This document shows positions 7,969 through 64,000 of a stretch of 64,000 nt of DNA, piece by piece (the stretch's first letter is position 1; each line of letters opens with the position of its first letter). Below the pieces are notes generated by a model that saw only the letters and a list, made by a program, of their open reading frames with translations, ran no database searches and was not told where the DNA came from. Origin of the DNA: Ceratodon purpureus (Eukaryota > Streptophyta > Bryopsida > Pseudoditrichales > Ditrichaceae); assembly GCA_014871385.1 (NCBI GenBank), contig CM026426.1, positions 21,899,408-21,963,407 of the forward strand, in the 5' to 3' direction. A program made the translations under genes and the position numbers.

Positions 7969-7975
7969 GTAGGCT

Positions 7976-10240: not shown

Positions 10241-10246
10241 GCACTG

Positions 10247-10467: not shown

Positions 10468-10509
10468 GCAAACCACCGCGGAGGTCATGGCCGCGTAGAG
10501 CACGTCCTT

Positions 10510-26130: not shown

Positions 26131-26136
26131 ACAACA

Positions 26137-27663
26137 TCAGGCGTCTTGGGAGAAAACCGCCTCAAACATACAATGGAGATGTGCCAAGCAGCCGCAAATT
26201 AGAGGTACGCAGCAGGTGTCAACGAAGTAACACTCGCAGAAGGGGCATGGATCATTCAAGGCTATTGGCAAAACGTGAAACTCCCATGGGTAGCGAAGCA
26301 ACACTTTCTTCGGTCGCAAGAAAGTTGATGCCAACTTCAAGGCCGAGATCTCCGCTGTCATCGCGGAAATTTCAGCATGCCGTTTCACCTCATCGGCTTC
26401 CATCTCCTCCAACTTCTTGTAGATTCTATCAATGCGACCCTTGGCCTCCTCAGCTGCCGTGCTTGCAAGAGACAGCTTATCTTGGCCTAGGTGGGCCAAC
26501 TGATCGAAGCGCCTCTTCTCTTGATCGTTGCCAGCAGCCGCGGCCTTCTTGCCGGCCTCGCGGGCGGAGAAGACGTCCTCATAGAGCTTGGACTCCTCTT
26601 CCTCCTTGGTCTTCATGTAGGCCTGTTGGTTTGCAAGATTGAGCTTCACGCAGTCCCGGTTGGCCTCCACCTTCACAAGTGCGGCCTCCAACGACTTCTT
26701 CTTCAGGCGCTGCTGCTGTAAGACTTGCTTCGGATCCGTTGCCACCAGGGGCTGCTCCTTGATGGCATCGGCAGGTGGCTTCTGCTTCTTCTCCTCCACG
26801 GTCTTCATAGGAGCTGGCAAGGATCTAGGAGCTCTCACCTTCTTTGCCTCCGCAGCCTTCACTGCCTTGGAGGTGGCTCCAACTGTCTGGGCAATAGGCG
26901 GTTCTTCGTCCCCTTCGCCCATGACCTTGTTGCTAGCAATGGTGGGGATGTGGCTATGAAGGAAGTCAATGATGGCTTTAATCTGCTCCCTCAAGGCCAG
27001 GGGTGTTAGCTTCTAGGGATTCCGCGCGGCCCGCTTCTCACGCGCCTTCTAAAGGACCTCTGCCTTCTGAGCGAAGTTGACATTCTTGCCCTCCTCAAAG
27101 AAGAGGTGGCACGCTCGAAGAAAGGAAGTCCCAAATGCGCAATTGTCGGGGTCACCTCCATAAGTCTTCCAGTAGCACTGCAAGTAGGTCCTCACAGCCT
27201 CCCCATCCTCACAGTCAGCAACATATTGCCGCCCAGAAGACCGCTCCGGCCATGCCTCGATGAAGTGGGCCTTCTTGCAGTGCTTGTCGCTGTTGAGGTC
27301 GGAGAACTTGTACCCCACATTGGAGAGCCCCAAGGTGCGGTGGAAGAAGTCTTCATCGTAGTCGGCTGTCTGCCTATCCAGCAGAAATGGGGCGAGGTGG
27401 TGGAGCTTACCTACGAGTGCAGGGGATAAGGCCTCCAAATCAAACGCATCATTCCACGGCGTCTCAACTCCTTCCTCCTCCTCGGTGTTAGCAATCTTGT
27501 GGTCGTCCTTCTTCACCCCTTTCTCAGCATGACCCTCCTGCCTAGAAGCCGCGGCCTTTCCCTTCCTGCAGCTCGACATCTCTGGCGCTGGTAGTGCAAA
27601 AACAACAGATTTTACAATAGGGGGATCGCGCATAGCAGCTGAAAAACGAAAGACCACTGACAA
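26137..27663 (-). pseudogene. Coiled-coil protein with Cys-rich C-terminus, two nonsense codons
   Basis: One minus-strand frame runs from about 27663 to 26137, interrupted by two in-frame TAG codons at about 27049 and 27010. The N-terminal part has a basic stretch (SSCRKGKAAASRQEGHAEKG), an acidic stretch, and a folded-looking block (DYDEDFFHRTLGLSNVGYKF, then YLQCYWKTYGGDPDNCAFGT). The middle is a long Lys/Glu/Ala coiled coil of roughly 150 residues. The C-terminus is Cys-rich: CPFCECYFVDTCC, then ICGCLAHLHCMFEAVF, a possible RING or treble-clef site. It lies on the same strand as, and downstream of, the transposase remnant at 29.2-31.4 kb. A nuclear DNA- or chromatin-binding accessory role is inference. 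Confidence 0.5.
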
Positions 27664-27819
27664 CGCATTATTCGCGCAGTTTAGTTGAATTTATTCTTAC
27701 TGAAGAATCCTCACAGCTCTCCAGACCATGGCGGCCATGGCCCCCTACTTACCAACACAACAACTAAAAGAAATGCTATGAAAATAGTTTTGAAATCTGT
27801 GTGCTTACCTCTAAGCTCG

Positions 27820-40070: not shown

Positions 40071-40286
40071 GGTTTAAGTAGTAGAGATGTGGTGAGCCCT
40101 GCTCCTACTGTAAGGACAAGTGAGCTTTGCTCCAAGTCGACATTTATTGCGAATCCGTTACCACTTTTGTAGCTCAGCTCAGAGTGAAGTTAGTCCTTAT
40201 AAATAGTTTTCTCATTTGATTACCCTTTACTTCAGTTCACCATCGCTTTTGTTTTGTGTCCAACAGTGCAGAGCTAGTAGATTCCT

Positions 40287-43200: not shown

Positions 43201-44498
43201 TCTCGCCCGTAGTCAAGTGGACCACGATGCGAACACTGGTTTCCATGGCCGCACAGGAGAACTGGGAAGTTACTCATCTGGACGTGAAGTCCGCATTTCT
43301 TAATGGCGTCCTCCATGAAGAAGTCTATCTCACGCAACCCCCTGGCTTCATCAAGCCTGGCCATGAGAAAGGTGTGTATCGCCTTCACAAATCTCTTTAC
43401 GGTCTCCGCCAGTCTCTCCGTGCTTGGAATGAGCGCATTGATACCTTTCTCCATGAAGTTGGTCTGACCGCAGCCGTATACGATCCTAGCCTGTACGTGC
43501 TCCGTGAGGACGACCTCCTTATTCTCCTGGTGATCTACGTCGACGATGTCATGATCACTGGCAGTCACTCAGTCAAAATTCGTTGGCTCATTAAACTTCT
43601 GTGCTCCACCTTTGATATGTCTCTACTCGGCCGTCTCACACTGTACCTAGGGGTACAATTCCATCATATTCCAGACGGCGGTATATTCATGTCTCACCGT
43701 TGCTACATCGAAAAATGCCTCTCCGACCTCAATCTCTCTGACTGCACTGGGGCCTCCGTTCCAATGGACCCCGGCACTCGCCTGTCTGCGGACATGGGCG
43801 CTCCCCTTGTGGATCCCACATATTATCGTATGTGCGTAGGAAAGCTGCTCTATCTTCAGAATACACGCCCTGACATCTCTTTTGCTGTCGGTCTTCTTTC
43901 ACGTTTCATGACCTCTCCCCAGCAACCTCATCTTGATGCGGCTCTTTACGTGTTTCGCTATCTGAAGGCTCACGCATCCTATGCCATTCACTATCAGCGA
44001 GGGGGAGAATTAACAGCCAGTGGATACTCTGATAGTGACTTTGCTGGCGATTTGGAGGAACGAAAATCAACCTCAGGTTTTCTATTCTCTCTGGCCTCTG
44101 GCCCCATTTCGTGGAGAAGCAAACTCCAGACCGAGGTGGCACAGTCTTCTGCAGAGGCAGAATACCGAGCACTCGCCGAAGCAGCTCGTGAGGCTCAATG
44201 GCTACGCATTTTGTTTGATGACATGGGCGTAAAACTGAAAGGGCCAACTATGATTTGGTGCAATAATCAGTCTGCCATTAAAATGGCCAAGAACCCTGTA
44301 ATGCACGCCCGAACCAAACATATTGAACGACACTGCCACCTTATACGTGATTATGTGAAGAAAGGCAGAATCCGCGTGGAATTCGTACCCTCCAAGGAAC
44401 AGGCAGCTGACGGGCTCACCAAACCTCTCAGCAAGGTACGTTTTGTTGAAGTAAGAAACATGCTGCAGATGAAAGACACTCAAGAAATCAACAGGTAG
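40287..44498 (+). pseudogene. copia gag-pol polyprotein with one in-frame TGA
   Basis: One frame of 1,403 codons broken only by TGA at 41979-41981. Gag (UBN2-type) fills residues 1 to about 220; a CCHC zinc knuckle (CNWCGRPGHILRNC) lies near residue 235; the aspartic protease DSGASRH near 312. The pre-integrase region LLWHRRLGHLNQQG is near 441, with CESC downstream. The integrase core begins HADLCGDF and resumes after the stop with LRSDRGGEF and QNGVAERKNRTL, so the stop falls between the first and second catalytic Asp. Reverse transcriptase has WVYKLK, THLDVKSAFLNG and YVDD; RNase H has SDSDFAGD and SSAEAEY. Start is ATG 40287 (MASGDCPESSKLTGF). The rest is intact, so the element may be mobilisable only by helpers or readthrough. 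Confidence 0.95.
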
Positions 44499-45509: not shown

Positions 45510-46072
45510 ACAATGATACTTAGAATATAAAATCGAATGTATTGCTATAATGTTGGTCATTCGTTTTCTCTAAAATGCTGAATGTTGTTTAAACGATGCA
45601 GGAAATGGAGAAGGCCAACTTCGACGACTTTCTGCAATGGAACGCAATCAAGCAGAGACAAACAAAAGAGGACAGCTCTTCGGAGTGGGTTGTTTAGGGT
45701 GTGGGCTGGCCTGTAAAGCGTCAGAATATAAGTCAGGTATGACCCCAGGACCAGAGATGTCTGGCGATGAAAACAAACATCCGTAAGAAGAGGGATGAAA
45801 CATTGTTAGTCCCAAGAAGTACAAATACGGTATGATGACTGCGATGAACTATTCAACGTCAAAAAATACATCATCCAGTATTTTCTACGGTATAGTGTAT
45901 ACTACTAGTATGGTACAAAAGTCATTGCAGTCACATTCATATGGAACTCACACACAAATACGCAATCAGATTGAACCACTGGCAAGATTGCCACGACATG
46001 ATAACAGTAGGGAACTAGAGCCAGATCGACGTTACGGAAAATGGGAAATCTAGTAGCGACTCATTGCCCTAG

Positions 46073-46174
46073 GGGTCCGGTTTCTTTTTTATTAAAAAAA
46101 AAAAAGAGAAACAAATCAATGTTAATGCAAAGAAGGCAATAGGGGGAATGCCAAGGGAACCAAGGGTCCGGTTT
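46073..46174 (+). repeat. 11-bp direct repeat flanking an A-rich insert
   Basis: GGGTCCGGTTT occurs at 46073-46083 and 46164-46174, with an 80-bp segment between that starts with a T-run and an A12-like run. This resembles a target-site duplication around a short, 5'-truncated retroposed fragment. It could also be a local duplication of the last accessory exon, which includes the right copy. Confidence 0.45.
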
Positions 46175-46516
46175 AGCGTAGACAGTTGCTCAATCGAGCC
46201 TCTGGAGGATGATAATTTGACAGAATTAATTGCAGCGTCAAAAGAAAACGAAGCCCGAGCACAACCATGCAGCAACATACATAATCGGTACTAAAAAGCA
46301 GTCAATTGGAAAAATTGGAAGGCTTTGTAGACCACGGCATTAAAAGCTGAAACCAGATAACATCTGCACCAATGCAAGCCTCCGACGAAATTTGCTGAAA
46401 CAACTCACATGGAAGGTTCACCAAGTTACAGATAAAGAATGTAACAAAGAGAAGATAATGTGAATCCAATCACCACCATCAAAAACCACCATCGAAAACC
46501 CGAGAATCAGAGTTCA

Positions 46517-46577
46517 ATAATAGTGACTATAAATACAATAATAGTGACTATAAATTTAATAGTGACTATAAATTTGA
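46517..46577 (+). repeat. Short tandem repeat (AATAGTGACTATAAAT)n
   Basis: Three imperfect units of about 18-22 bp with core AATAGTGACTATAAAT. They lie downstream of the 3' end of the minus-strand LINE and could be its 3' tail repeat, as some LINEs end in short tandem units instead of poly(A). Confidence 0.5.
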
Positions 46578-46903
46578 TATCAAATGTCACCTGGCGCAGG
46601 CGCCAAATGATCAAAGGGATTGCAAACATCAAAACAATCAATCTCATTCATAGTACCACACGAGAAGGTAAATGATCCATCCGCGAGATCGAACAACCGG
46701 TATCTAAATACAATCGTCCTTCACTGATGAGACATTATGGTAAGATTATATAGCCAACAAACATCTCAATGAGAGAGAGAAACTACGGTCTCCGGAGGAG
46801 ACCGAAGTCAATTAAGTGTCTGTTCGATCCACCCCCAAGCCAATGCCCACAGGACAAAGGTATGGAAGTAAAGATCTACTCCCCCCTTTCGAGAGTAGAC
46901 ACT

Positions 46904-49180
46904 TCAGTCACAAAGTAAACAATAACTAATAACCAGTAACAAGTAACAAGTAACAGTAGTGATTATCTTCTCAAGATTCATGTGATTGCAATTTTGGACA
47001 CCAAGCCACGAGCTCATTGTTAGTTGGAGGTGAGTGTTTGTCTCATTTATCTGGTCCGGGTTCGAACCCTGATGGACTCGTTTGAGTGGATGTGGGGGAT
47101 GAAGTGGCTTGGTACTACTGAGTGAGCGATCGCAGACAGTAGATGAGTTGTGCCAACCAACAGCCCCCTCTGCAAGAAGTTGACAAGAGACTTGACACCC
47201 GTACGCTAACAATTTAAATAAAGTAGCTCTAGCTACTAAAATTTTTATTTGTATTTTGATTATAATTATGGGTTTTGACTGTAGGGGATCTAATGTTTCG
47301 GATAATGGTTGGTGGTTTTCTATTCTTCTTTTGTGGAGAAGAATAGACATGGCATATTGTATGGCAATAGTGTTTATGTTTTTAAAGGTGTTTTTGATGG
47401 TAATCAAAGGTATTTTGAAATTGTCTACAAGTAGTTTCATTGATGGAATGTGTGTGGTAGCTCTGGCGCCTGCTGTGATGACAATAAGGGGGTCAACTTT
47501 CCATCCTCTAGCAGTAATACTGGCAATTAATGGATTGTATTTGTTGGTTTTAGCTTCAAATGTTTCTGGTGAGAATCGGCCGTTGCAGTATGTGAATTCA
47601 ATCAATTGTATGGTAAGATTGGGGTTTATTTCTGTAGGGGGGTCGCTTTGGTACGATAAACCTTTAACGCAAAGAATGTCTGGTCTGAATCTAGAGTTAC
47701 AATGACATCTTTGTGTGTCACATGTGCATGGAAGTAGCCAATTGGGAACGGTATTTTCTGAGGGTTTATCATTGAAGGTGCCCGCATTCATTAGAATAAA
47801 ACAACGAGATTTTTCGGATGAGATTAGTAGTTTTCTAATTTCCCATACTGCTTTGTTGTGTCTTTTGACTCGGAGGGAGTGTATATGTTGTTGTTGGCAT
47901 GTGAGTAATACATGTAGCCATGTATCCGGTTCACGTGAATTGCAAATGGGACATGTGATAGATGGAAATCTTTCTCTTCCGAAAAACATTTGTTTTCTAG
48001 CTTGGCCCATGTAAGTTCCCGTACGGAATTTTATGAGGCATGATTTTTGTTTGTCAGTGATGGCTAGATTTTCCCAAAATTTGTTAGAAAGTTCATTGTT
48101 TATGTCTATATTTCCCGTCCATTTGCAGATGTTGGGGGTTTGTATGGCCATGATTTCTAGATTGTTTTCTCTGTCGTATTTTTTGATTTGTTTTTCTAGA
48201 GTTCCAACAGGTCCTTTATCTGGAACATCATTTCTCGAAGGCCAGTTATCTTTTTGGAAGTAGAACGGAGTGGCATGGGCATGTTCGTATGGGTGTAGGG
48301 CTTTTCTATGTCCTAGCTTTAGGCCTTGTTTTGCTAAGTAATCTGCTTCTTCGTTGCCGTCAATGTTGATGTGTGCTCTAACTTTGTATAGTGAAATTGG
48401 TTGTGTTCTTTGTTGGAGTAGTTCTACCATGGAGGCAAGTGTGGCTTGATTGGGGTGGCTGTTATGTAGTGTGGGATGTTTTATTTGTGTATTAAGTAAA
48501 TATAGTACATTTAGACAGTCGGTAAATATGTATGCTGGTTCGTTAGAGAATTGTGTGTTAATAATTCTGAGTGTTTTGTGTACTGCCATCATTTCTGCAC
48601 GTAGTATATTTTGGTGTCCGTGGAGTCTTTTGGAGATATTGAGGTCTTTGGGGCTGTAAATACCGTATCTGGCTCTTTCTCTCCGCCATTTCAGTGTTTC
48701 TTTTACTGGCGAAATAAAAATAGATTTTTTTTATATTTGGCTATAAAGTCCTAAAATCATTGATTAGTCGAAGCCAAAAATTATCCAACGTGTAACTTGG
48801 GTGGAGCCATCATTCCCACAACAAATTGCACTTTTTAAGGTGTCCAATGACATAAACTACATAATACCCAAAATTAGTGGGAAAAAAACAAGGATTGCCA
48901 AAGGGCTTCTCTAAAAAAAAATTGATGAAGCCAAAAATTTGCTCCCAATGTATTCCTTGTGGCCATTCTAGCACCAAACCATAAATCCTAGGATTTACAC
49001 TGCGCCATTTACCGTCGCCAATTTCTTTTGGTGGTTTAAATGATCCATCTGTATAATAACTGAATTGGGGGTGGAATTTTAGTGGTAGATTTGTTTGGTA
49101 ATTTGGTAGTTGTGGGGTAGGTGTTGAGTTATTTGCGGGGGTGTTTGGATAGTTTAATTTGGACCATTTTTTACTGGGAT
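46904..49180 (-). mobile_element. 5'-truncated LINE: RNase H, zinc knuckle, nuclease-like C-terminus
   Basis: 3' portion of a non-LTR retrotransposon. RNase H begins with YYTDGSFK near 49050 and continues after an interruption (about 48730-48990) with LRAEMMAVHKTLRIINTQF, AYIFTDCLNVLYLL and KVRAHINIDGNEEADYLAKQ, giving the catalytic Asp/Glu set. A reverse-transcriptase-type C-terminal zinc region follows (CPICNSREPDTWLHVLLTCQ, then KRHNKAVWEIRKLL). A C-terminal domain has RPDILCVKG, then IQLIEFTYC and KYNPLIASITARGWKVDPL, which resembles the PD-(D/E)xK-like ends of some green-algal LINEs. The ORF from 48592 to 46904 is stop-free. No endonuclease or RT core lies upstream, so the copy is 5'-truncated. 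Confidence 0.75.
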
Positions 49181-49836
49181 TAACATCTCAATGACATTTT
49201 AATTGAATGCATAATGGCGCCAGCGCCACTTGACAAACACAGCGCGATAGGAAACGTGGATAGTCAGAACGCTCTAAAAAACCAATTAGGTCCGTGTCCA
49301 AATTGACACCCGACATCAATTCACCAAAAATTAGTAAGATAAGAGTCTTCAAATTCCGATTGAAGGATATTTTGAATGTACTGACAGAAAAGGGAAAGTC
49401 ACGTTATCAATAAAGTTGCAATATCTTTAACAAGAGAATTTCCAGATGCGGGTAAAATATATGAAAGAACTCCTATCATCATCTAAAGCCATTGCCGGTG
49501 AAGGAGGCAGCGGCATCGAAAATGCATCCTCATGTCCCCGTCATTGAATCCCTACATCCAAACCCGGGAGCACGGTATCGATAGGCAACATAAAATCTTA
49601 AATCCGAATCCCAGAGGCAGAATCCGTAATGGCGTATCCTAATATAACCATCTGCCAATACACTTGAATTTCATATTGGCGTATCCCAGATTATGGCCAC
49701 TGCAGTCCTCGTGATTCGTGAGATCGAGGCAGAGAGCGCAATGTTCCCACAAATATCAATATATAGCTCCATTGAACAAGCACCTTTCATAGTGAGACTA
49801 CCCGCCCCAGAAGACCATAGCTAACAACCTCAGAGC

Positions 49837-50408
49837 ATGTCTGTGTGTGTCTCGACTGAGACTCTGTGTATCAAATGGCACCCAGGGGCCAGGAGGAGGA
49901 GACCGAGGAAGGCTTCCAGGCGTATGAAGCTCCATGGGTCGAGACTGGCCACTACAACGAGCGAGCGACGGAGACAAGCACTGAAGAACTGGTTCTCAGG
50001 TAAACCGAATGCACCTCATCGTTAACTTTTACTTGGCATATCTTTTCAACACCATTGCATGATGCTGCATCGTTTGGCACACATCTCTCGTGCTAGTTAT
50101 CTAGTTTAGTAATAGTACTCATTGAGAGCGAGCTTAAATCTTCTGCAGACTGCAGCTGCGCCTGCCACTCAGAGCTCAGCCGTATAATATCCATGTCGTC
50201 CCGAGTTCAAGGCATACAAACTGCTGAAAGGCTGAGTCTCAAATCCGCCGGCGCCGATATTTATCTGGAGTTTCGCTTTGAGGAATCGTCTGTCAACGAG
50301 GCGGCTGCTGAAGCAGTGAACAAGGAAGGCGGAAGTTCAGGTACAGCATCTAAGGACTTCGACATGATTTCTAAGTTCTCGGCAGACATAGTGAGTGATA
50401 ATGAGTAA
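49837..50408 (+). CDS. Possible small gene convergent with the methyltransferase
   Basis: A basic stretch (GARRRRPRKASRRMKLHG, near 49880-49930) ends at a TCAG|GTAAAC donor near 49999. After an acceptor (TTCTGCAG) near 50149, an ATG at 50193 opens 71 codons: MSSRVQGIQTAERLSLKSAG, then ADIYLEFRFEESSVNEAAAE, ending SADIVSDNE at 50408. It ends about 215 bp from the 3' end of the minus-strand methyltransferase gene. Phase across the intron is uncertain, so only the second part is moderately supported. The family is unknown. Confidence 0.3.
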
Positions 50409-50622
50409 GTTGACCACTGCTGCGGTGAGCACTGAAGGAATACCTTGGACACCCAGTAGTAGCATATGCATTCGAGAGTAGTAAGGCTGGTATGTTATTA
50501 CATTAGCACAAAGATACATAAATGGTGATTCCAGAGGAGATCCCTCAGTGTTGATCCTAAGACTATACTAAATACATGCTGGCTATGATCACAGGCAATG
50601 AATTGGACATGCGATGTTTAAA

Positions 50623-51106
50623 TTAGCTAGCCATGTCAAACGAACTCAGACTCAACGCAGGATGCGTGTTAGTGTTGGAGTACGTCCCGTCGAGGTCCTG
50701 TAAGTGCTGTTGAAGTGACATGATCCGATTATCCTCCCTCCCAATGTCAGCGCTAGGTTCAACAGAGTCGTCTGATAGGAACATGTTAAATGCCATTGCG
50801 TCCTCCTCAAGTGCAAGAACATGGCGGCCACTAAGCTCACATGCCTGCATCGATGAACCTGTATAGAACAATATATTGTTAGAGTTCTTCCCAGCTAAAA
50901 GGAACATTAAGTATTACATCAGAGACAACATTTCGCTTACCTAATGCCCCTGTCAAGTCGAGAACGGCACTACCCTTTCCGGTGCAGATTTCTATCATGG
51001 ATTCCATGAACGCAGGGGCCTTTTGTTTTGAACCACGGTATGATAATGTCTCCTTACAGTGCAGCAAATTATCGTCAGTTACAACATTCTCGAGAACGTC
51101 GGACAA
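50623..51106 (-). CDS. Methyltransferase motifs X, I and II (two exons)
   Basis: The exon ending at 50941 reads KQKAPAFMESMIEICTG, KGSAVLDLTGALG and splices (G|GTAAGCG ... TACAG|GTTCAT, intron 50940-50859) in frame to SSMQACELSGRHVLALEED, then about 45 acidic and polar residues to the stop at 50623. The layout matches the C-terminal half of beta-class DNA N4/N6 methylases: a helix for cofactor-pocket motif X, the motif I strand and glycine loop (bacterial D-P-F-x-G-S-G; here D-L-T-G-A-L-G), then a helix and motif II acid (here ALEED). This part is intact and is the best evidence for the fold. Confidence 0.65.
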
Positions 51107-51304
51107 TTCATGACCTTACTAGCGATTTCGTGAAATCGAAATTTGGTCTGGCTCATACATTTCCTTCTAAAAACCTTAGCTTTAAAAAGTCGCTTTTGTA
51201 AATACAAGTCAAAGTAGGCCTCTTAGTCATGTTCAAAGTGCATCACTCAGGTTTCGGTGGACGATTAAAGAAGGGGTGGAGCAAATGAAGGGAAAAAATA
51301 TTAC

Positions 51305-51640
51305 CCAAGTAGGAAAAAACGGTTTGTGATTTACAACGTAGAATGTCTTCAAACACTCCCAATCATTAATCCAACTCCCTGACATGAGCAAAGGCTGCTC
51401 CTCGGTGGGAAGAAATAAAAGAATGATACCGGAATCCGCCAAAACAGCTTCTGCAATGTGAAATATTGTCGGGAACGTTATCTTCTTAAGCATATTCCAA
51501 ACCGGCACCTTCGATTCATGCGGCAATGCTCCATTGTCGTATCCAGGAACCTCGCTATTGTCAGGAGTGTCACAAATTATCAGGTCCACGCAATTCCTAC
51601 TTGTAACATTGTCATGCTGCCGAAGCCTCCCACCGTTAAT
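51305..51640 (-). CDS. Methyltransferase motif IV exon, degenerate DTPD
   Basis: Exon bounded by CTGTGACAG|ATTAAC and ACTTGG|GTAATA. It reads VDLIICDTPDNSEVPGYD, then FHIAEAVLADSGIILLFLPT and FYVVNHKPFFPTW. Beta-class methylases have DLIxxDPPYN followed by a strand ending in gly-rich and hydrophobic residues; here DPPY is DTPD. The aromatic residue that stacks on the flipped base is missing, so catalysis is doubtful while binding could persist. Motif IV before motifs X-I is the beta-class order and argues against a METTL3-type DPPW enzyme. Confidence 0.55.
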
Positions 51641-52096
51641 CTGTCACAGGAACACAACTCGTAAGGATCTACACCGAATTCATTACCTAGCGTCGGCGCC
51701 AAGACCAAGTAGAAAAGCGGGATACCATATATAAATACACGATATGGTAGTTCGTTATCTCCCCTAGAAGCACTGAACATTGACAGGTAAGAGCTGATGC
51801 CAAAACAAGGACATACTAAATATGACCAGGTGGCGCCGGCGCCAAGAGTACAAAATACATGGAAGAATTCGGCCAAAATTAAGTGCATGGATCAAAGGAC
51901 CAGACGAAGTCGACAATCGCATAGTCTCTCAGTTCTTTGAGTTACTAAAAATGAACATTAAGCAAGGTACATCTAATACAAACTGTTAAAAATACATGCT
52001 TAAGCATCCCCATGTTCATGGTACCGGGACTCGGTCCATTCCACCGCACTGGACTACCTCTCACTGGACTCCACAGGCAAAAACAAAACATAACAT

Positions 52097-53042
52097 ACCG
52101 TACTTTAGGGTCAGCTTCATCCCCCCTCGGACGAATAATTAATTAATTTCAAGTTTTGATGTCCGGCACCTAGAAAAAGTATATTCTCAATTTCGACAAT
52201 TTTTTTTTTAATTTCTTAAAAATTCATCTTAATGCTTTATTTAAATTTTCTACTAAAATATCAATCCCCCACATCTTTTTTGCATTGGATGTCTAGATAG
52301 ATTTTATTGAGAGTCGAGAATGCTCTTTGCTTTATGCAAGTAGAGTGGAGTTGTGTCCAACAATCCATATGGGAAATGTGAACTTTGAGGTGAAGCACTT
52401 AGTTAGTCTTCTTTTTTATAACACACATAACTTTTGCATATAATCTTCAAATGACATAAAATTTATTGGAGGTGAAAGATTACTTGATTTATAAACTTTT
52501 TTTAGACCAACAAAATTTCAAAAAAGTTAATCTTCTATACAAAAATGACCTCTGAAAAACTGTTTTAAACCCATTCTATCTTTTTAATCTTTACAAGGCT
52601 GCAATGATTTGTTCATATCTTTTGCATAAAGACTTATTTTAAAACAAAATTTGTTGGAGCTGGAAGAAGAATTGATTTATCAACTTTTGTTACTTATTCA
52701 CAATTCTATAAAACTTCATCTTCTATGCTCAATTGGACTCCAAAAATCTCTGTACAACACATTTGAAAAGCCTCACCTAGACTCTTGCTACTTCTTAACC
52801 CATATTCTTTGTAAACTAATGTGTGTGAGCTTGATTACAAAAGGAGCACAGTCTCTCCATTACCATTTACGCATGCTTCAAATATAAGTAAATGTCTAGT
52901 GTGAAGTAAAATTTCTTTACATTCCGGCAATTTTGAAAAATAATTGACATTAAATTCGACAAAAAATGCCAATAATTTTCTAAAATTTCCGACATCTATT
53001 TTTGGAATTATTTTCTGACGAAGCTGACCCTAAAGTACGGTA
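52097..53042. mobile_element. 946-bp MITE-like element with 26-bp inverted ends
   Basis: The left end 52097-52122 starts TACCGTACTTTAGGGTCAGC and is matched by the reverse complement at 53017-53042, with one mismatch. The interior is AT-rich with no gene. A TA dinucleotide at each edge fits a TA target duplication, making ends of CCGTACTTTAGGG. This suggests a non-autonomous Tc1/mariner-like or similar element. It sits between the linker exon and the methyltransferase exons, probably in an intron. Confidence 0.75.
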
Positions 53043-56000
53043 TACAGATGATAAGCATGAAATCAAAGGAGTGCTGAACCAAGATCAAGAGTTCGAAAAA
53101 GAAGCTGCATGTCCAAGATTGATGTGGCGTGGGCGTCGTATGCCGAGAAGAAGAATTATTGGGATCTAATTAACAATCCCCAATAGGAAGGCAGAAGTGC
53201 AACCGCAAACCATCTAATATTAACGCACTCAAATTGGAAATGACATAACTAGGTCTCAAAACTGAATAACTAAGATGTGAATTGACGCTCGGAAGTTCAA
53301 GAAAAATTATGAGCATCAGTGCAGCTCAATCTAACACCAAGGTGAGGCATGCCGAGGCAATGCCAAAGTCTAGTAAATCCCCTGCCAACGCAGCGAGATG
53401 ACGCCGGCGCCACTCGACAGTTCAGATGACAGTCGATTCGATACGCAGCGCAAGGACCCTCTGAACAGAAAAATATCAAGTCAATCATAAAGAACTTCGG
53501 ACATATGAATACCTGCTTGATGGTGGCCAAAAAAGTCGCAAAAACAAAACGATCGATGCCTTCAAGCAAACTCTCGAAAGCAATGTTCATGGTCCGTTTC
53601 ACTAAGGCATCCACGCCTTCTATAGGCAGAGCCGAGAATTTCAGCTGATGCGATTCATCTGTTCCGGCCTTGGATATCTTCCTTAGCGACCTGGATGACA
53701 TTTTTTTTGGGATGGAGGCAGAGGACGAAGGCTTCGACACGTTACTATCCCTCAATGTGTCCTCAGGTCCCTTAATTGGCCTCGAGCGCAGATCATGGAA
53801 TAGTTGAGTGGGTGGTTGCTTGTTGCCTTTAGTAGCACTCACAAGGATTGTATCATGATCTTCCTCGGAACCGAGTCCCAGCAAATTCACATCCTCCAGT
53901 ACGTCCGCAACAATAGCATTTGATTCCTCTCCTGGCGGTTGCTGAGGAAGAGGCGCCTTTCCAGCTTTGGCAGCAATTAGGTCCTGCAGCTCAATAAACA
54001 ATATTGGTCCGTAATGAGTGTCGAGCACACCGTTAGTAGAAATATCACACACGTCTCTCGGAACGTAAACTCTTTCCAATGAACCAGATTAGGCAGAAAT
54101 AAGTGTAGAGGATAGTCCATAAGAAGTGCCATCTACCGTTTCAGGTCCTCTATTCCGATCACCTTGCAAATTACCCGTTCCGATCCGCTCCACAATTCGA
54201 TCAAGGGTTGAATCAAGAGCCAAAGCCTTCTCAGAGAGCGGGGCAGATTTTACGGCTTCAATCTCCCGTTTGACTCGTTCAAATATATCCCTGTCACTTG
54301 AATCAAGGAAGTACCGTTCCTGCCTACCACTCTCTATGTACCAACCGAGGTACTTTAGATGAGGCGGACTTTCGTCGAAAACATCGAACACGCTCGGCTT
54401 TGTCAAAATCTAGTCTAGAAAAATAGGAATCTTGCTAATGTCGCCATCTTCTTTAGGAATAAGGCTGTGTGCCTCAATAATCCAGCGGACAAATCTCATA
54501 ACAAACCGACTAACTGCCATCTCTCCTTTTGCAAATGTCGTCTGGTCCCTCAATTAATGTCAGAACTCGCAAGAACAAAATTCTCTGGCAAATGAAGTCA
54601 AATTACAAAACAAAATGAATGTGCGCTTCAAGCGATGGAAGTAGCAATGACTGCAGGAGAAGAACTGCAAATTATTCCATGAGATGTAAGGCTTTGATCC
54701 ATACTTACCTGCTCCCACCACGCACGGCGATTTAGCCATTTCTGAAATGCAGCTCTAGTAAAATCAAGGTCGGGAAAGTGATACTTTAGCTTCAATTTGC
54801 TAGAGCTATTCCACAATTTTAGAATCCTTTTAATGTCCACCCCTTGCACACCTACAAGTATGCCAAGATTGTCCACTGTCATCGCCCCGGCCTTTTTCGA
54901 ATTTGCGCGTGTGTGGATATCGAGTTCCTCAATAAGGTGGGGTTGGTACTTTGGGTTGCAAAGTCTAAATATCTTCTTCATGTAGTCGGTCTTCTCTTTT
55001 CTACAACACTGAGCCGCGTCATATTTTGCCTTCTCAATCATCGCCGCGGATGGAATTGGGAATTCGTCCTTCAACGCCTTGACTGCTTCACGCTCTGCGA
55101 GTATGATATCGCGCTGATAACATAGTTATAACATTGTAAGTCCTTGAACAATTCAATAAATTCCGAAAGCCGCTTCTAGCACAAACATGATATCTATGTT
55201 GAGCAATCTAATGCGACCATCAATCACTAAATCTCTCTTATGTTAATGAATGTGAACCTTAGCTCCTTTGGTATAAAAACCACTAAAGCTATAATTTGAC
55301 AAGATATCGGACATAGATCCATTGGAGCGGAATATGAAAAGTTGAGGAGCCCGAAACCAATATAGTAGTAGGGACAATTAACGGATGCGAAACGCTGATA
55401 AAGTGGAGAATCTGCTGCCCCTTGTTATCGAAGGCCACTGACATCCACATTAAGCCCTAAGCAGCACCACATAAATGAGCACGAACGTTCTCCCCGACCA
55501 CGCTTAGCTGTTGTCGATGCGAAACAGAAATCAAAGTTTCCTCTCTAAAGTGACTCAGCCAACACAACTTTGGCTAATATGACAATAATCACCCTACTGC
55601 ACAAGTCTTACTCTCTCATACCAAATTCGAAAAAGTGCTTGATAGGACAATGGTTAGAATCAGTGGTAAAAATTACGGACCTTGAAGTACACTTCGCAAA
55701 CTGCATCGCACGTCATGTTATATCACCGTCCCTTGCAGACGTCTTTAATACGTTCGATCTCATCGAGAGTGAAGTAGGGACTGTATTCTGAGGGGTCGCG
55801 ATTAGCAATCTGAATGACCTCGAATATAGTATGTGCGAGTTGCTTCTTCACAGTCGTGTTTGTCGTTCCACTATTTACACAAGCATCACCGTCGCATCAA
55901 CAAACGAGGTCAGTTCACTAGACTATAAGAATTCTAAGAACATGAACCCCAACCTACTAACCAGTACAATATGCAACAACACTACTGGGTAGGGGAGTCT

Positions 56001-56130
56001 TATAAACATGGAAACATTAAAATCTTCATCAATGCCATGGTGACGAGCAAAGTACTCAGAGATGCAAAAAATTTTGACATCTTTGGAACGAACCAAATGG
56101 AGTAAATGCTAAAGATCAAAGGACTTACTC

Positions 56131-56519
56131 GTTTATATCACGCATGAAATTTGATATCCAGCCTCTGTCGGACTCGGAATCATTCAGAACAAAACAAGAG
56201 ACTTTAATTGGTTCTCCGTTGTGATCCTTGATGTGTCGCATCCAAGCCAATGCACGGTGGTTGCCATCCCAAACGTGAACATAACGGTCAATCATAGCTT
56301 CATAGAGAACCTTGTTCTTTGGATCGCTCACGCACAAAGATTTATCGAATTTGTCCGACATTGCCGACCATTGCTGTAGATCCTCAAAACCTTTGCAAGG
56401 AAACAACCCGGGTCCTCCAAAACTGGTAACCCAGAAATTAGTCCCCCAATTGCCTATGTCGAATCCATCATACACAGTCTGGACATCGGCCGGTAGGGCT
56501 TGGCGAACCCAAGATGTAG
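56131..56519 (-). CDS. ParB-like domain exon (DGNHR)
   Basis: Exon between CTTAAG|CTACAT and ACGA|GTAAGT. It reads WVRQALPADVQTVYDGFDIG, NFWVTSFGGPGLFPC, YEAMIDRYVHVWDGNHRALA and WMRHIKDHNGEPIKVSCFVL. The invariant VWDGNHR matches the ParB/Srx-fold signature and is shared with the plus-strand gene at 11.5-12.1 kb, which has Trp-to-stop and Arg-to-His changes. It splices in frame into the following exon. Confidence 0.6.
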
Positions 56520-56759
56520 CTTAAGTCGACAAAGGGGGATGTCTAGCTTCAAAGGTACTAACTTGCGGCTCTCCAAGTGTTTTTGAATATTAACCTGGCT
56601 AAATAGACTTTGTTAGAACTCCTCAAAAGAGGACACTGACGGATTAGGGTCCACCTCCCTTTCAATGGCCCTCTCAAAATCATCTACGGGCTCATAGTCG
56701 TCACCATAGTCGTTTTCGGCAATAGAGGAAGAAATAATGTTCTGCAGATGCAAGCAAAA

Positions 56760-57970
56760 CCAGGATCCTCACTGTTAATCCCTATACTTAATGGAATCCT
56801 CATTTAATTTAATGGTGGCTCAGAACAAATTATTACAAATGTAATGACAGTCAATGCATACATCCACAGTCAAACCGCACGGCTAAGGGCGAATGATAAC
56901 CCGAAGTCGAATCAGACCAAACAAACTAAAGTATAAACAGGCAATGATCCTTGGAAGAGAAACAGAAGCGTATGGCGCCAGCATCATTTTAGCCATGTCC
57001 GGAATCTCTAAAATTACAACACCAGTGAAATCATCGAGGCCCGCAGTAATTCTAATTAGGCTAAACCTTTACATTCAAATGGCGCCGGCTCCGTTTGTAT
57101 CAATCCAAGAACAAACATACATAACCAATCTTCATAGAGGTTCAGTAAATTTCTATTCGACGAATGAAGATTGCGCCAGCTTCGAATGCATATTCCAAGA
57201 GACAAATTCAAGACAGTTACTAAGTAACAATATCAAATCTCATGCAGGAATTGCGACAAAGCAAGCATTTGCCAAGCGATAAAATTTTCCCCCGCCAAAT
57301 GGCGCCTGCTCCATGTGTTCCAATGGTGTCCCTTTCAACTCGCCATTGTCAACTAGGACAAGCGTTGATAAACAATTATTATCGCAGACATGCATGCAGC
57401 TACGAAGAGTTCATCAGCCCAAGAATGAACCATCTTCCTAAACACTTGGGCATGTGGCCTTTTGGTGCTAGACATCTCACCACATGCCCATCACTACAAG
57501 CATCGATAATTTAAATCGCGCCTAGGTCCTACTGTAACACATACATTGAGTGTCGAATTAAGAATAGAATAGGACACGACATTAGACCGTAAGAAAATTC
57601 AGAGTACAAACCAAGCTCAGATACATTGAGAGGGAATCAAATACAATGTCATCTTCTACAGGGACTGACACCTTCATTGCAAATTTCACGGCTATGGCAG
57701 GCGTCGTAACGAAATCAAGAGAATGCAAACGTGCCAGGCAGATAAGTCAATCACATACCCAATCGAATCGGCAAGTCACATGTCAGAAAAAATCGAGACG
57801 ATAGAAATGCCTGTCCCCAGGAATCCATGATGATTCAAAAATCACAGTGAAAACCCTACTGCAATTAAACTAAACCATACGAACCCATCAAGAACCACTC
57901 TCGAACCCAAGAACTTCGTAACTATAAAGATCTTGCTATATCACGGATCATATGAGACAATTGCGAAAGG
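56760..57970. other. Probable long first intron with palindromes
   Basis: Between the first and second methyltransferase-gene exons. No minus-strand coding is obvious. Plus-strand frames at 56893-57282 and 57242-57514 carry Met-Ala-Pro-Ala-type words only because palindrome variants at 56973, 57080 and 57300 translate that way. I do not call them genes. Confidence 0.4.
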
Positions 57971-58143
57971 CTTACCGGGGTAAGTGTTGGCTCCGAGGAC
58001 GCTTTCCGATTCTTCTTGCGACTGCCGCCTTGAGTGCCTTGAGTGCCCGCGCGTCGCTTCAGCTTGCCAAGGCTCAACAGGGACCCCTTCGTAGCAGCCA
58101 TCGTTGCCGCTGACCCGTTAAGGATATTATCTAACAAAGACAT

Positions 58144-58749
58144 ACTCGCGAGGGTAGACACAAAGTGATGTGATTGATGAAGAAGATATGAAGGTATGAG
58201 TATTTCAGATCTAAACCTAATCGAGGAGCAAGAGGACTGCAACACGAAGGTGGAGCACAGTGAGAGTAGGGTACAGAGCGGATGTGAGGATAAGGTCAAC
58301 ATGAGTGCCATATTTATTCTCGCGGTTTGAACGGGATTGGTAATTTTAAAAAAACCTACATTACCCCGGAGAGTTCCGTTATCTCTTCATCTCGCAGGGA
58401 AAACTCGACCCAACGGCTTTCTGCATCAAATGCTCTTAACTTCGGCGGTTGTTGTGGATGTCCGCGGGACCACAATGTTCTCTAACAATCTAAAGAATGA
58501 GATATTGACGGCAATGGAATGAATTGTATAAACAAATGACCGTTACTTACGCGAGACAGAAGTAATGCCAAGAAAATTCATACAATTCGAGTCGTTGGAA
58601 TTAGTTCACCAAACATCTGCGAACTAAGCATATAGCATAAGGATTACCGAGGAGACCTGTCGTCACCATCACTGTCAAAACCAGGATATTACATGGGCTG
58701 CCATAAGACTAAAGATTCAGCATTGTAAGTCGACTATAGCCTTCTAATC
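58144..58749. promoter_or_regulatory. Divergent intergenic region
   Basis: About 600 bp between the methyltransferase gene (minus, ATG 58143) and the MULE-like gene (plus, ATG 58750). Divergent starts imply a shared promoter region. I see no clear TATA box or full palindrome copy in it. An upstream in-frame ATG at 58311 would add about 56 residues to the methyltransferase gene, so that start is uncertain. Confidence 0.4.
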
Positions 58750-61700
58750 ATGGCAGTTCTAAGTGAACTGATCATTCGCCGCTCTCGCCAGATCCAGCAC
58801 CTTAGGTACTCTTCATTAAATCAAGAGATTGAGATTCCGGAGTTGGAGCTGGCCATGGCGATTAAGCTAGCGGAGGGTAGCATTCACATGAAGCGCATAG
58901 ATTCGAAGGGGGCGATTTGTGGGATCCACTAGTTAGAGTCAAGGGATGGATAGTCTGTGTTCAATTTGCCAGTTACGCATGGCGGCTCCTTTATTCTCTT
59001 TGGAGATGAGCAGAGTCACCCGCGTCCAACTGACCCCACGCGTCCCGCTAGGACTCCTACTCCCATGGCTCAGCTAGAAACTACATCCTTGAAGTTCCTA
59101 AATTCCAAAAGCGAGTCCTCGCGTTGCAGCCTGGAATTCCACGGAGCTTTCACAATGTATCGGAATGACAAAGCAGGGCATCAAGGAAGTCTCTCCATGG
59201 ACAATTTCCCGGTGGAATGCATTGGTGACATGGCTACTGATTCTATGCGATCTGATCCCATCATTGGTACCCCGCATCCAGAGTGTGCGTCTCCAATTAT
59301 TGGGCTTGAATGTACATCTCCTACATTTGAAGAGACTGACGAACGCATTAACGTACTGATGGAGCATGGACACGATCTTCATATTTCCAATACAAGAGAG
59401 CAAGCAATAATGTCCCACTCTAATGCTTCGTCGCCGATGGCTGCAATGGCTGCGAACAAGGAGTCGCCTATTCCGGGAGAATTATCGATCATTCCGCTAT
59501 TGCTGGACCTCAACGCCCGCGGTTGTACAGGTGAATTTGCTACCAACCCTTTTGAGGATTTTGCAAAAACAAACTGCAAGTATTTACCGAAGGATTACGA
59601 TGGCAATCATATATTTGAAGTTCCACCTATATTTGGGGATGATACAATCTCGACCGATATATCTTTCGACGGCCATCCATGGGTTAAATCCAACTGTTAC
59701 AAGTCGAAGCGCTTGGATGATGCCGGAGTTCGAGTTCGCAAATCATTCTGCGCCGGCGCATTTTGCTGCACGGATCCGGATTGCAGCCACATTGAACTCC
59801 ACGGTTCAGCCAATACGCTTTACAGGGAGGGAAGATGTCAGACGAGGCCAAAAGCCGGAGATATTCCATTGGACGGGAATTGGAGGTGCTCCTTCTGTCG
59901 ATGGACACCATCCTGTGTAAGTCAGTGTTCAAGTATTCTTTGGATTGTTAACCTAATTCACACCGATATACACGTGCTGTAGTCCATACAGGAGTGCACA
60001 GCCATCCATCCCCTCCCGGGAGAAGCCGGGTCGCATATGCCAAAATGACAGACACAATTCACCGATTCCTTGATGACCTGCCATGGCTCATGAATGCGCC
60101 GGGGTGGGTGGGATTTCGATGTGCACATCGGAATTTTTTGGATTTGATTATGCAGACCAAATCAGTCCAAGAGCAAGAATTACTAACAGAGGGGCAACTT
60201 ATGGACCTCTTAGAGAATGCTCCACCATATCACGACAAAGGCCGAGTGAAGTACGCGGTTACGATGTTCAAGTCCGACCAAGAGCATTGTATCTTCGCAC
60301 TGAAGAGATTTTCTCGGTACAGTTAAATTCAATATAGTCATTTTCCAGGCCAGTCTCACAAGGGCGTAAAGTTTGTGTTCAAAATGTCGACGGTGGGCAT
60401 CGGAAGCGGTGTCGCTCTTGTCAATCGCTTGACAAGTGGTGACTTCAAAGATAGCTTTGTCATGTTTGATCATATTAAAAGAGTTCATCAATGGACAACT
60501 ATGGCTGCTCACGTAGATGACCATAATGTAGGCCGGCTACTTACAATAGCAGTTTGCGAGATGGAGCTGGAGAACACTGAAAACCAGGTCAAGTTCTGAG
60601 AGCTCCTTAACGAAACCGTAATTACTAGTGGGCAAGCGAAGCCAAAGTTTAAGGGATTTATGGCTGATGCCGCACCGGCAAACTACAACGCAGTGAAGAT
60701 AGTTTATGGTACCTTAGATGGGCTCGGCAGCGAGCTTCACGGTGAAGAAGTAGCCTTAAACCCTAACGACCCAATCCTGCGTACTTGTTACTTCCACTTT
60801 GTCCAGAGCATCCATGATCATTCTAACAAGTGGGTATTAGAAAAGTACCAAACCCATCATACCGAGATGTGCAAGCGGTGGGCTAGAGCTCCGACCAACG
60901 AGGAATTTCTTGAGATTGGGGAAGAGCTTCAAACGTGGTGGACGGATTCTAGTGCAACACAAAGACAACATTTGCGATATGCATGGGTGGATGACATGGT
61001 GGATGGCAAGACGCACACTTTTCGCGTACCACCATCTGAACGAGCTTGACCTTGACCTAGAAAGCGAGGCACTTGTCCCCAACACAAACTTGTGCGAGCC
61101 AGTTCACAGTTCAATGTGGGCCACATCCGCAAGCGAACTCAAGGTTAAAATGGATTTGTACACTGTTTGTGCAGAGGATATGACTTGTTAGAATTATAAC
61201 AAGTTGGGAATGGAACTAGAGGGGGAAATGGACAGAATGCAGAATGTTAGATTCACTTCAAAGGCTAGGAAGCGGAGAGTGGCCCGCTCTCACAGACCTG
61301 ACAAAGACAGTCGCACAATTCGGAAACCGCTAAGATATCAGCCACCATCCAATCCTGACCTCGTGTCTCCAGGACATAGGCGGGGTCGTCGAATCGGGAC
61401 GAAGGGAGTAGGACAGCCGACCCCAGTTGAACAAGAACTGACCTTCCCAAAAACCGTCCCCAGTCATTCCCAGCCGGCGAATGCCGAACCGGCGACTCTA
61501 CCACCATCGACAACCGCACAGGCGCCGCCGGATTTTGCTCCAAGAACCAGCCGTCCAGACACCGCGCATCGAATGGCGCCGGCGCCACGATCCCATCATG
61601 ACAACTTCAGTTCTATGCCTCTCTCACCATCGGTTCATCCAGCGGCCCCATTGTCCACAACTCAGTTCAATCAACACACCTCGATGCCTGCGATCCCAAG

Positions 61701-63484
61701 ATCAGCGACGTTTTTGACGTCAACTCAGAACACGCCTAACCTGTCTCATCATTGGAGATTTGCAACTTCAGAGCGGGCCTTTGCGCCATCGCCCTTTCCT
61801 CAATACCAGCCCGACCCAATCTACAGTCAGGGTCTGACATCTACCCCACCCTCGGTGGAGCCATTTTCCTCACGGAGTGCGGGCATTTCTAATCAACGCT
61901 TCATTTCCACAGCTCCTAGTGAAATGGCGCCGGCGCCATTACGTGATCATCAAGGATATGGACTGCAGTCGGTGGATGGTTCTCGGTCGCGGTATCCAGA
62001 TGGTCCACCAATATTTCCAAACGCCTCGCCAAGCGGTATGGACGGACAGGTAATGCCCGAAACTAGACCATACACCTGGGGAACTGAAGACCAGAATCGA
62101 TCGACCTTGCCCGAGCAAACTAGTCAGACCCAAGGAGGTTGTTACACAAACCTTGCTTCCACGTCGAGGATGATGAGCCAAACTACTCCTAATCGTCAAT
62201 TGGCCAATTCGATTACACCACCGAGGTGGGAATCCACTGATTTCCCGTCTGTGGGACCATACCCATCCAGACCACATCATCCAATCACTGATCCGTTGAC
62301 ACCTTAGCGCTGGGAGCTAAGCGGTCAACCGGATATTGGTGTTTACTTGGCCACTGCACCACATCAATCTTCTGGAAGTGTGATGCAACCTAGTTCGGGT
62401 GGTTGGGTTGAATTCCCCGCCAATTATGTCTCACCCTATATGTATCAATCAAATTCTAACTCGATGGCACCTCCTGGTGAAAGGAGGGACATACGGCACT
62501 TTGACCAGAGTCGTTTTCAAGCAGAGAGGTTGATCGGGACACCTCCAGGATTCCCGAGTAAGAACACCAACCAGCCTCCTCCTGCCGTTCAGTTTGGATT
62601 TCCCGTAATCGAGAGAGATACAGATCACAAGCAATGGGCGATCCGAAGATGTCTTCCACATGAGAATCCAAGGTGTGCCGCAGTGGTACTTCGGAACGGG
62701 CGCTGGGATACCAGCGGTCGAAGCATCAAGCCCGATGTCAATTCGACTTTTGCTGCACCCTGTTTTTATGGCTGTAGCGAGGTCCGTTACAAGAAGAGTT
62801 TTCAAAACTTCTGGTTCTGTGCAACGTCCATAACAGAGTGCGTGAGCTCTGACCACGTCCAGCAGTTAAAGGGAGGAAAGCCACCTCGCCTACCGCAAAT
62901 CTGGCCCGTGGAAACAGGAACTCAACTTTCTACTTCCGAGGCGTCTTCATTAGGAGCCGCGGGTTTTTCTTTGGTAGAGAGGCCAAGGTCTCATGACGGT
63001 ATGGCAAGCAGGTCGCTGGGCCGACATCCTGCTGAGTTGAATCAACCAAGGCAGCCTCACGATGATCCTCAAAAGGAGACCTTTGCGACGGTGTGGCAAG
63101 CGCATAAACAGAAGATCGATCACTGAAGCCGCGGAGAGCCGTCGCAAGGAAGGGTTAATGATGCGAGCGCACGTTCAGCTGCTCGACCAGGACGAGTCCA
63201 ATAGCATGTACCAATTTGCTTTGCACACTATTTCCAAAACTTTTAACAAGCCTGTAACTTATCGAATTTTGATATGTGAAACTCTAGCCTGTACCTGCGA
63301 ATTCTTCGTTAGTAGCATTGCTGACACCAGGGCTGGTCACTTCTTCATGACATGCAAACACATGTACTATTTATATAATGTCTTTTTTGGGTTGCCATTG
63401 ACGGACGAACGACCACATCAAGCTACTCTAAGTAGGGTCGAAGTCGACAACATCATCAGAACGTGGAAGTGCCATAGTTGTTGA
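58750..63484 (+). pseudogene. MULE-like transposase with GCM/WRKY-like and SWIM zinc regions
   Basis: Plus-strand gene, several exons. The N-terminal frame from 58750 has two TAG stops near 58930 and 58945, and a long unstructured part. A Cys/His region follows: FCAGAFCCTDPDCSHIELHG, NWRCSFCRWTPS, then (after an intron at about 59920-59983) HTGVHSHPSPPG, a WRKY-GCM1-type metal site. The DDE core has SFVMFDHIKRVHQWTTMAAH, FKGFMADAAPANYNAVKIVY, RTCYFHFVQSIHD and, in another frame, VPNTNLCEPVHSSMW, with a stop near 60598 and a frameshift near 61020. A 370-residue Pro/Ser-rich linker (61204-62307) contains two MAPAP words, then TAG. Next is a C4-like region (PCFYGCSEVRYKKSFQNF, WFCATSITEC). A frameshift near 63100 leads to the SWIM finger (CTCEFFVSSIADTRAGHF, CKHMYYLY) and the stop at 63484. 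Not functional as it stands. Confidence 0.7.
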
Positions 63485-63798
63485 GCAAACCTCAATGAGA
63501 GTTCAGGACATTTGGATTTGCGCCGACGCCAAGTGATGAGCAGATCCCGTATCATGTAGTACTGCCTTTGTAGAAGTAGCCTGCCTCGAATATCAATGTA
63601 CCTGTGCAATCTTAATAAATAAAGACAACTTATCCTTCGCAGTCATCCCATAATGAAAAGCACAGACCACCTTCATGCTTATTAGTCATGACCTCGGCAA
63701 TGCCACATCCCCTCATTGCTGAAGCACTACTATTTATCCTCTTAACCAAGTTCGATGACTTTAGTAGTATAAGATCGTCTCTAGGTTTACCTAATATG
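63485..63798. other. 3' flank of the MULE-like gene
   Basis: Non-coding. It contains an AATAAATAAA polyadenylation-like word at about 63611-63624 and the last palindrome variant at 63519-63531, which may mark the right subterminal region of the element. Confidence 0.4.
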
Positions 63799-63963
63799 AT
63801 ATCTCACCCTCCATGGAAAACCCAACCTGGTTAAAAATAGACATTTGGGACCCTATCATCAAAATTGTAGTCTACTCATAAAACTAAATTTCTGAATGAT
63901 TTAGCAAAAAAATTCAAAATTCTATTTTAAACCAGTTTGGTTTTTCCATGGAGGGTGAGATAT
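63799..63963. mobile_element. 165-bp foldback MITE
   Basis: The left arm begins ATATCTCACCCTCCATGGAA and the right arm is its reverse complement. Arms of about 40 bp differ at a few positions, around a loop of about 80 bp. TA at both edges would fit a TA target duplication, with ends TCTCACCCTCC, reminiscent of Stowaway-type MITEs. It lies just outside the MULE-like gene. Confidence 0.7.
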
Positions 63964-64000
63964 GCTATCTTCATGTTTTTCTGAGCGAATTCATTTAATG

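Follow-up and report, generated by a model that had tools for sequence, protein, structure and literature searches.

A divergent gene pair in a large moss transposon

The stretch of DNA analysed here, hereafter the window, comprises 64,000 nucleotides of the moss Ceratodon purpureus (assembly GCA_014871385.1, contig CM026426.1, positions 21,899,408 to 21,963,407; positions below are counted from its first letter). It contains one copy of a family of large DNA transposons, at least ~17–19 kb long, in which a transposase gene that by motif resembles those of Mutator-like elements (MULEs) is paired head to head with a spliced gene for a protein that joins a ParB-like domain to a DNA-methyltransferase domain, and in which short palindromes are dispersed. 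Both genes had been proposed in an initial annotation and both were recovered, the transposase gene on the plus strand and the ParB-like/methyltransferase gene on the minus strand, with the reported ~600 bp between their starts. The interval assigned to the pair, 50623–63484, lies inside the element but is smaller than it: comparison by blastn with another copy (C8_7347) placed the body of the element at 45668–64000 and, in extended coordinates, up to ~66303, with three nested insertions and a third, RING-like gene outside the window. The copy in the window is decayed: it shows frameshifts and in-frame stops, and both genes are broken.

The exons of the minus-strand gene were read against an intact reference copy at 13.55 Mb of contig C5, whose equivalent gene has, besides a separate first exon, seven exons with AG/GT borders that together encode 1106 aa with no stop. 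The sole protein-database match to the intact-copy protein, by single sequence and again by profile, is an annotated full-length relative, a hypothetical protein of C. purpureus (P0001; 60% identity over 99%), which reads continuously over the junctions of the C5 exons; the exon order in the window agrees with both. Exon 1 (57976–58143; borders set by eye, ATG near 58143) begins with MSLLDNILNGSAATM and resembles exon 1 of the intact copy, which begins with MFSIDNILNGSAATM. By homology to the C5 copy and P0001 it is followed by a ParB-like exon with a VWDGNHR box (56128–56711, with a frame change near 56520), by the exons of the central region (53510–55878, namely ~55878–55681, 55119–54703 and 54550–53510, with in-frame stops), by a methyltransferase exon with motif IV (51302–51643; VDLIICDTPDN), and by the methyltransferase exons with motif I (50626–51201; VLDLTGALG^GSSMQACELSGRHVLALEED), in which the frame is broken.

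The ParB-like/methyltransferase protein

The protein has ~1100 aa. Its N-terminal domain is ParB-like, a long central region follows, and the identification of the C-terminal domain as a methylase was borne out by profile searches. The Pfam family PF01555 matched three of three members at E<=1 (best E 4.1e-5, with 24.1 bits just under the curated cut-off of 26.7); this match came from the spliced protein only, and Pfam searches with raw exon pieces were uninformative. For P0001, four methyltransferase families of PHROG were found at E<0.001 (best 6e-6), and a profile search of PDB identified DpnA (E 8e-4), while a search of NCBIfam gave nothing relevant. A tblastn search of phage sequences yielded 81 records at E<=1 (best E 2e-4), and the ten listed align from motif IV to motif I, i.e. 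in beta order. Motif I is kept as VLDLTxxVGSSVxACELSGRHILALEED in most copies. The C-terminal domain is thus a predicted beta-order DNA-methyltransferase fold.

The case for the N-terminal domain is different. The DGNHR box that had been taken as the sign of a ParB-like domain is present, in the form VWDGNHR, in the six sequences of the main (A) branch and the one of a distant (B) branch that were aligned, and as VWEGNHH in a decayed third relative; profile matches to ParB, however, are non-significant (phrog_1033, a ParB-like family, was matched in five of eight members with a best E of 0.038).

The ratio of nonsynonymous to synonymous substitution rates (Ka/Ks) in the methyltransferase domain is 0.05 (C5–C4 and C1–C4), 0.07–0.08 (C5 and C4 with C8_7347) or 0.155 (C5–C1_680), three of the eight pairs being saturated at synonymous sites and giving no ratio. 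In the transposase core it is 0.03–0.07; for the ParB exon, four pairs give 0.07–0.13 and the closest pair gives 0.45. The methyltransferase domain and the transposase core are under purifying selection.

The transposase

The transposase gene (58741–63469, plus strand) was delimited by tblastn with the intact 1607-aa transposase of the C5 copy, to which its pieces are 41–80% identical. It is broken into several frames in the window, whereas the closest intact relatives have a single open reading frame (ORF) of ~1600 aa; in eight copies the transposase is a single ORF of 1402–1626 aa, and in a ninth it runs off the end of the examined stretch. The segments MFDH, MADAAPANYN, CYFHF and TNLCEPVH were judged by eye to be invariant in six copies, and the ORFs end in a SWIM-like CxC...CxH C-terminus and contain a Cys finger ending in HxH; the same landmarks were seen by eye in the B branch. 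This agrees with the D...D..CxxH...E layout with a zinc finger and a SWIM finger, which we take to be the mark of MULE transposases. None of six transposases matched any Pfam family at E<=10, none matched a PDB entry at E<=5, and a protein-database search limited in words and length found no homologue. The MULE-like character first assigned to the gene thus goes by motif, on its D, D, CxxH, E and SWIM-like landmarks, as no Pfam model recognises the protein.

Recurrence of the gene pair in the genome

Copies were sought in one search of the genome contigs, which gave the best 150 of 1153 scored candidates, so that all counts from this census are lower bounds. We kept 89 rows of at least 49% identity, including the window, and left out 53 rows with ~23–32% identity as well as 8 that were second fragments of split loci. 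Relatives were also sought in viral contigs, where none was found. Ten A-branch copies were examined, picked mostly for open frames. The transposase and methyltransferase genes stand head to head in nine of them. The tenth, C9_380 (C9:371000–390999), has an open methyltransferase gene and five core palindromic sites, with no transposase match in 20 kb; its neighbours give the impression of ordinary host genes, and it is a truncated, or possibly a domesticated, copy. One of the low-identity rows, a distant B-branch locus, encodes the same protein architecture at 21–35% identity, with introns that, judged by eye, sit at matching positions in five cases, and has a head-to-head transposase in broken frames whose matched pieces show 26–36% identity (E 1e-61 to 1e-64). 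In the sample examined, other copies of the element thus do not consistently lack the methyltransferase gene, the pair being present in the window, in nine of ten A-branch copies and at the one B-branch locus. Since the pairing is common to branches at 21–36% identity, it is old. The family has also spread recently, as C8_11127 and C10_12821 are 99.6–99.7% identical over at least 16 kb.

A methyltransferase gene caught by chance, as in Pack-MULEs, could in principle be a passenger with no role for the element, and gene capture is frequent in MULE-type elements (PMC13317346; PMC6446971). We disfavour this explanation as highly improbable: the methyltransferase domain shows Ka/Ks values of 0.05–0.16, the matched stretches of the seven exons are free of stops in nine of the ten copies (C6_51689 has two), and the pairing is shared by both of these distant branches.

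The chromosome of the window, C6, measures 110.5 Mb of a 362.5-Mb genome (30.5%), while the eight other large contigs for which a length was listed measure 16.7–29 Mb. The UV sex chromosome of C. purpureus has been described as ~30% of the genome, in assemblies of 358 and 349.5 Mb (PMC13120521), and on the agreement of these shares C6 is very probably the giant U or V sex chromosome. C6 carries 44 of the 89 kept rows, where its length would predict 27; the matched exon is without a stop in 19 of these 44 rows and in 38 of the 45 elsewhere. Decayed copies accumulate on the presumed sex chromosome: 25 of its 44 rows have stops, versus 7 of the 45 elsewhere.

Dispersed palindromes

The dispersed palindromes mentioned in the initial annotation are real. 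By the count used (6-bp arms, gap of up to 2), TGGCGCNNGCGCCA is the commonest short palindrome of the window, where 12 sites with at most two mismatches to it were found against 1.17 expected, a number reached in none of 100 shuffles. Eleven of the twelve belong to the element, with positions from 45668 upwards, and the twelfth, with two mismatches, is at 18675. The motif scan placed TGGCGCAGGCGCCA at 46592–46605 and TGGCGCCAGCGCCA at 49215–49228. Within introns it placed a degenerate site with two mismatches (51688–51701), TGGCGCCGGCGCCA (51831–51844), a site with one mismatch (53399–53412) and, in intron 1, three degenerate sites (56973–57313, starting at 56973, 57080 and 57300). Two further sites fall in the variable region of the transposase ORF (61574–61587, which encodes MAPAP, and 61925–61938), and a degenerate one with two mismatches lies just 3' of the transposase (63518–63531).

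Across the seven copies with a defined end, 111,010 bp of element sequence hold 48 exact TGGCGCNNGCGCCA sites, or 75 when up to one mismatch is allowed, whereas the 28,990 bp of right flank hold none; after shuffling (30 times each), an element has on average at most 0.1 sites. Three copies without a defined end, excluded from the flank comparison, carry 5, 11 and 7 exact sites. Most sites of the C5 copy are in introns, untranslated or intergenic DNA, and sites with an unchanged sequence are retained in copies whose transposases are only 53–65% identical to the first one aligned. All ten A-branch copies have 5–11 core TGGCGCNNGCGCCA sites and no GCCGGTACCGGC. The B-branch locus has no TGGCGCNNGCGCCA and 16 GCCGGTACCGGC sites, counted without a shuffle test, part of which form an array spaced by ~95 bp and are so not independent of tandem duplication; all 16 lie within 4.6 kb (7489–12069), in the methyltransferase gene or immediately 5' of it, and none in the transposase region. 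A family-specific short motif is thus enriched in the non-coding parts of the element, as in VANC-type systems, and, each branch having its own palindrome, the putative reader and its site change together between the two branches.

The reader could be the transposase itself, with the palindromes serving as its binding sites in the manner of subterminal repeats and the ParB-like/methyltransferase protein either assisting transposition as an accessory factor or modulating the transposase. Some sites do lie in the transposase gene or next to it, others within ~1 kb of the element's end on the methyltransferase side, and the transposase has diverged between the branches together with the motif. 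The sites of A-branch copies are, however, spread through the element and its introns rather than clustered at the ends, those of the B-branch locus avoid the transposase region, and the solo gene C9_380 still carries its five core sites, all of which makes this explanation unlikely. We regard as quite improbable another role, in which the ParB-like/methyltransferase protein would coat the element to repress its own genes, or recruit silencing through the dispersed sites, and so control copy number: intronic and intergenic sites suit a regulator, and head-to-head promoters invite autoregulation, yet the recent spread documented by C8_11127 and C10_12821 speaks against a repressor.

A possible self-recognition system

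The explanation we favour, to which we would give an even chance, is a VANC-like sequence-specific self-recognition, probably for anti-silencing, in which the ParB-like/methyltransferase protein reads the palindromes of its branch. The element would combine a MULE-like transposase of the DDE type that bears a SWIM finger, the ParB-like/methyltransferase protein encoded head to head with it, and the product of the RING-like gene that follows the transposase. The ParB-like/methyltransferase protein would bind its own branch's palindromes and, with many sites occupied, coat or chemically mark only its own element. As with VANC in VANDAL elements, the effect would be to hold the element in an accessible, unsilenced state or else to direct its transposase. 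The proposal made at the outset, that the element may mark, hide or bind its own DNA, fits the element-specific palindromes.

Motif IV reads DTPD in all ten A-branch copies and DYPD at the B-branch locus (one phage match that we read has DLPY). Methylation cannot be assumed because this departs from (D/N/S)PP(Y/F/W): in every member seen, Asp takes the place of the aromatic residue that active N4/N6 enzymes have, and loss of that residue usually abolishes N4/N6 methyltransferase activity. Of the beta-class N4/N6 methyltransferase in the initial annotation, the fold therefore stands, by profile and motif order, and the canonical catalytic motif IV does not. An active N4-cytosine or N6-adenine methyltransferase, writing a self-mark at or near the palindromes that would exclude silencing factors or protect the element, seems rather improbable on the same grounds, even though the fold keeps its motif I for S-adenosylmethionine (AdoMet) and the domain is under strong purifying selection. 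In the self-recognition system that we favour, the fold might either retain an altered catalytic centre (DTPD) or have been turned into an AdoMet- or DNA-binding module.

Besides motif IV, several observations weigh against the self-recognition proposal. The methyltransferase gene stays open in C9_380 without a transposase, and the co-occurrence of the two genes comes from a biased sample rather than an unbiased genome count, because open frames were the main criterion in choosing the copies, two of which are near-identical. Three exact sites of the C5 copy fall inside the transposase ORF, in its variable region, and not in non-coding DNA; the GCCGGTACCGGC count is affected by tandem duplication as described above; and the transposase or the RING protein could be the palindrome binder. 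Support for the ParB-like domain is non-significant throughout: in one member an unnamed family, at E 0.016, scored better than the best match to phrog_1033; ParB itself gave no match in Pfam, and a PDB search with the ParB alignment only chance-level matches. On the methyltransferase side, PF01555 stays under its cut-off, and a single-sequence PDB search of this part found nothing below E 1.1.

Ends, nested insertions and neighbouring features

The methyltransferase-side terminus of the element lies at 45668 and ends in ...CACACCCTAAACgACCCACTCCGAAaAGCTGTCCTCc, which is common to copies in different contexts. An inverted counterpart of this terminus was sought across copies, and none was found, so far as terminal inverted repeats are concerned. 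This end is defined and the other is uncertain; comparison of two boundaries by eye showed no target-site duplication. Duplications of 8–11 bp and terminal inverted repeats are features of many, though not all, MULE families. The copy C6_51689 was considered as a source of the second end and rejected, as it is truncated inside the RING-like gene. The C5 copy contains an insertion of ~296 bp (near 4873 of stretch L034) that ends in the element's terminal sequence and whose other end could not be fixed; it is a candidate non-autonomous derivative.

Comparison with C8_7347 revealed a nested insertion foreign to the element at 46770–49182 (minus strand), with an ORF at 46907–48730 that presumably represents a retroelement RNase-H region, and another at 52101–53030, bounded by inverted repeats (CCGTACTTTAGGGTCAGCTTC). 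A third, small one, recognised by copy comparison and likewise bounded by inverted repeats (CTCACCCTCCATGG), lies at 63803–63955. Outside the element, two long ORFs (40281–44495, plus strand) with gag and integrase-like sequence presumably represent a Copia-type retrotransposon.

The third gene, beyond the transposase, was found in the copies read that far and encodes a coiled-coil protein with a RING-like C..C...C.H..H..C pattern, matched weakly by Pfam RING models (E 0.26 or more). The subfamily of the C10 copy has two such genes in tandem, and further out the C10 copy has duplicated small ORFs (one with MSFI.GLPDE.V... and one for a protein of 223–238 aa) that may belong to the element. Elsewhere in the window, at 26032–27690 (minus strand), a coiled-coil protein with a RING-like cysteine cluster, 25% identical to the B-branch RING-like protein (E 5e-5), may mark a further element.

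The decayed third relative of the ParB-like gene lies at 11623–13589 (plus strand), separate from the element, and its ParB exon shows 39% identity to that of the distant branch. About 1 kb upstream of it, near 10286, 10402, 10550 and 10676, are four inverted repeats that read GCTGTC-N6-GACAGC or differ slightly from it. As a third case of a reader with its own site it is weak, because at least two of these repeats sit in a tandem repeat.

Comparison with known systems

Fusions of a ParB-CTPase fold with an N6_N4 methyltransferase are known from phages and are enriched in prophages (PMC12704722). They share with the moss protein a ParB-type box and a PF01555-type methyltransferase in one polypeptide and the association with mobile elements, and the moss palindromes, as binding sites, would be parS-like; the moss protein differs in being eukaryotic and spliced and in its long central region, its degenerate motif IV and a ParB similarity below significance. 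The main text of PMC12704722 contains no occurrence of plant, moss or transpos. Such fusions could be the ultimate source of the moss gene, with a sequence link seen between the methyltransferase parts only. It is possible, though we hold it only tentatively, that a phage-type ParB-methyltransferase was adopted by a plant DNA transposon, and that a ParB-like clamp on parS-like palindromes, with an altered methyltransferase centre, keeps only its own element open, branch-specific pairs of palindrome and reader preventing cross-activation.

Other transposable elements also carry DNA-modification enzymes. Fungal DNA transposons with TET/JBP dioxygenases are thought to be aided by them in escaping silencing, but these enzymes oxidise 5-methylcytosine, the transposases belong to other superfamilies, and the abstract mentions no dispersed family-specific palindrome (PMC12730594). 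Retrotransposons of dinoflagellates and charophytes likewise encode DNA methyltransferases, which are captured C5 cytosine enzymes and not a ParB-like/beta-type fold in a DNA transposon (PMC5890265). A study of MULE diversity describes accessory ORFs, with no methyltransferase or ParB domain among those seen and no word beginning with 'methyl' in its main text (PMC6446971). Titles and the beginnings of abstracts in the literature covered, which excludes most subscription papers, contain no description of a transposon or Mutator-like element bearing a ParB/methyltransferase gene. If our reading is correct, a ParB/methyltransferase module is at work inside a eukaryotic transposon, and the family offers an example of a methyltransferase fold under strong selection after loss of its standard catalytic motif.

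Sequence-specific anti-silencing by a transposon is known in detail for VANC of Arabidopsis, a protein in which, to our knowledge, there is no methyltransferase domain. VANC motifs of VANDAL MULEs are described as repeated in non-coding DNA and introns, as differing between families and as guiding the loss of methylation (PMC5735166; PMC10398659). The moss element resembles these systems in combining a transposase with a second gene, in the short motif repeated in the non-coding DNA and introns of its own family, and in the different motifs of related families (PMC5735166; PMC10398659); in addition, VANDAL transposases are listed as having a SWIM finger (PMC6446971). The VANC motifs given in these sources, in contrast, are non-palindromic (YAGTATTAY, AGTTGTCC) and often form tandem arrays, whereas the moss sites are palindromes of 12–14 bp. 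The moss protein is moreover composed of ParB-like and methyltransferase parts, and the host is a moss and not an angiosperm. Two statements should be kept apart: the moss system would work like VANC, and as a whole it belongs to no named family. With an apparently different protein architecture, in a moss, on a giant sex chromosome as well as on autosomes, it shows the VANC hallmark of family-specific dispersed sites, and its longer, often perfect palindromes give a directly testable prediction of binding.

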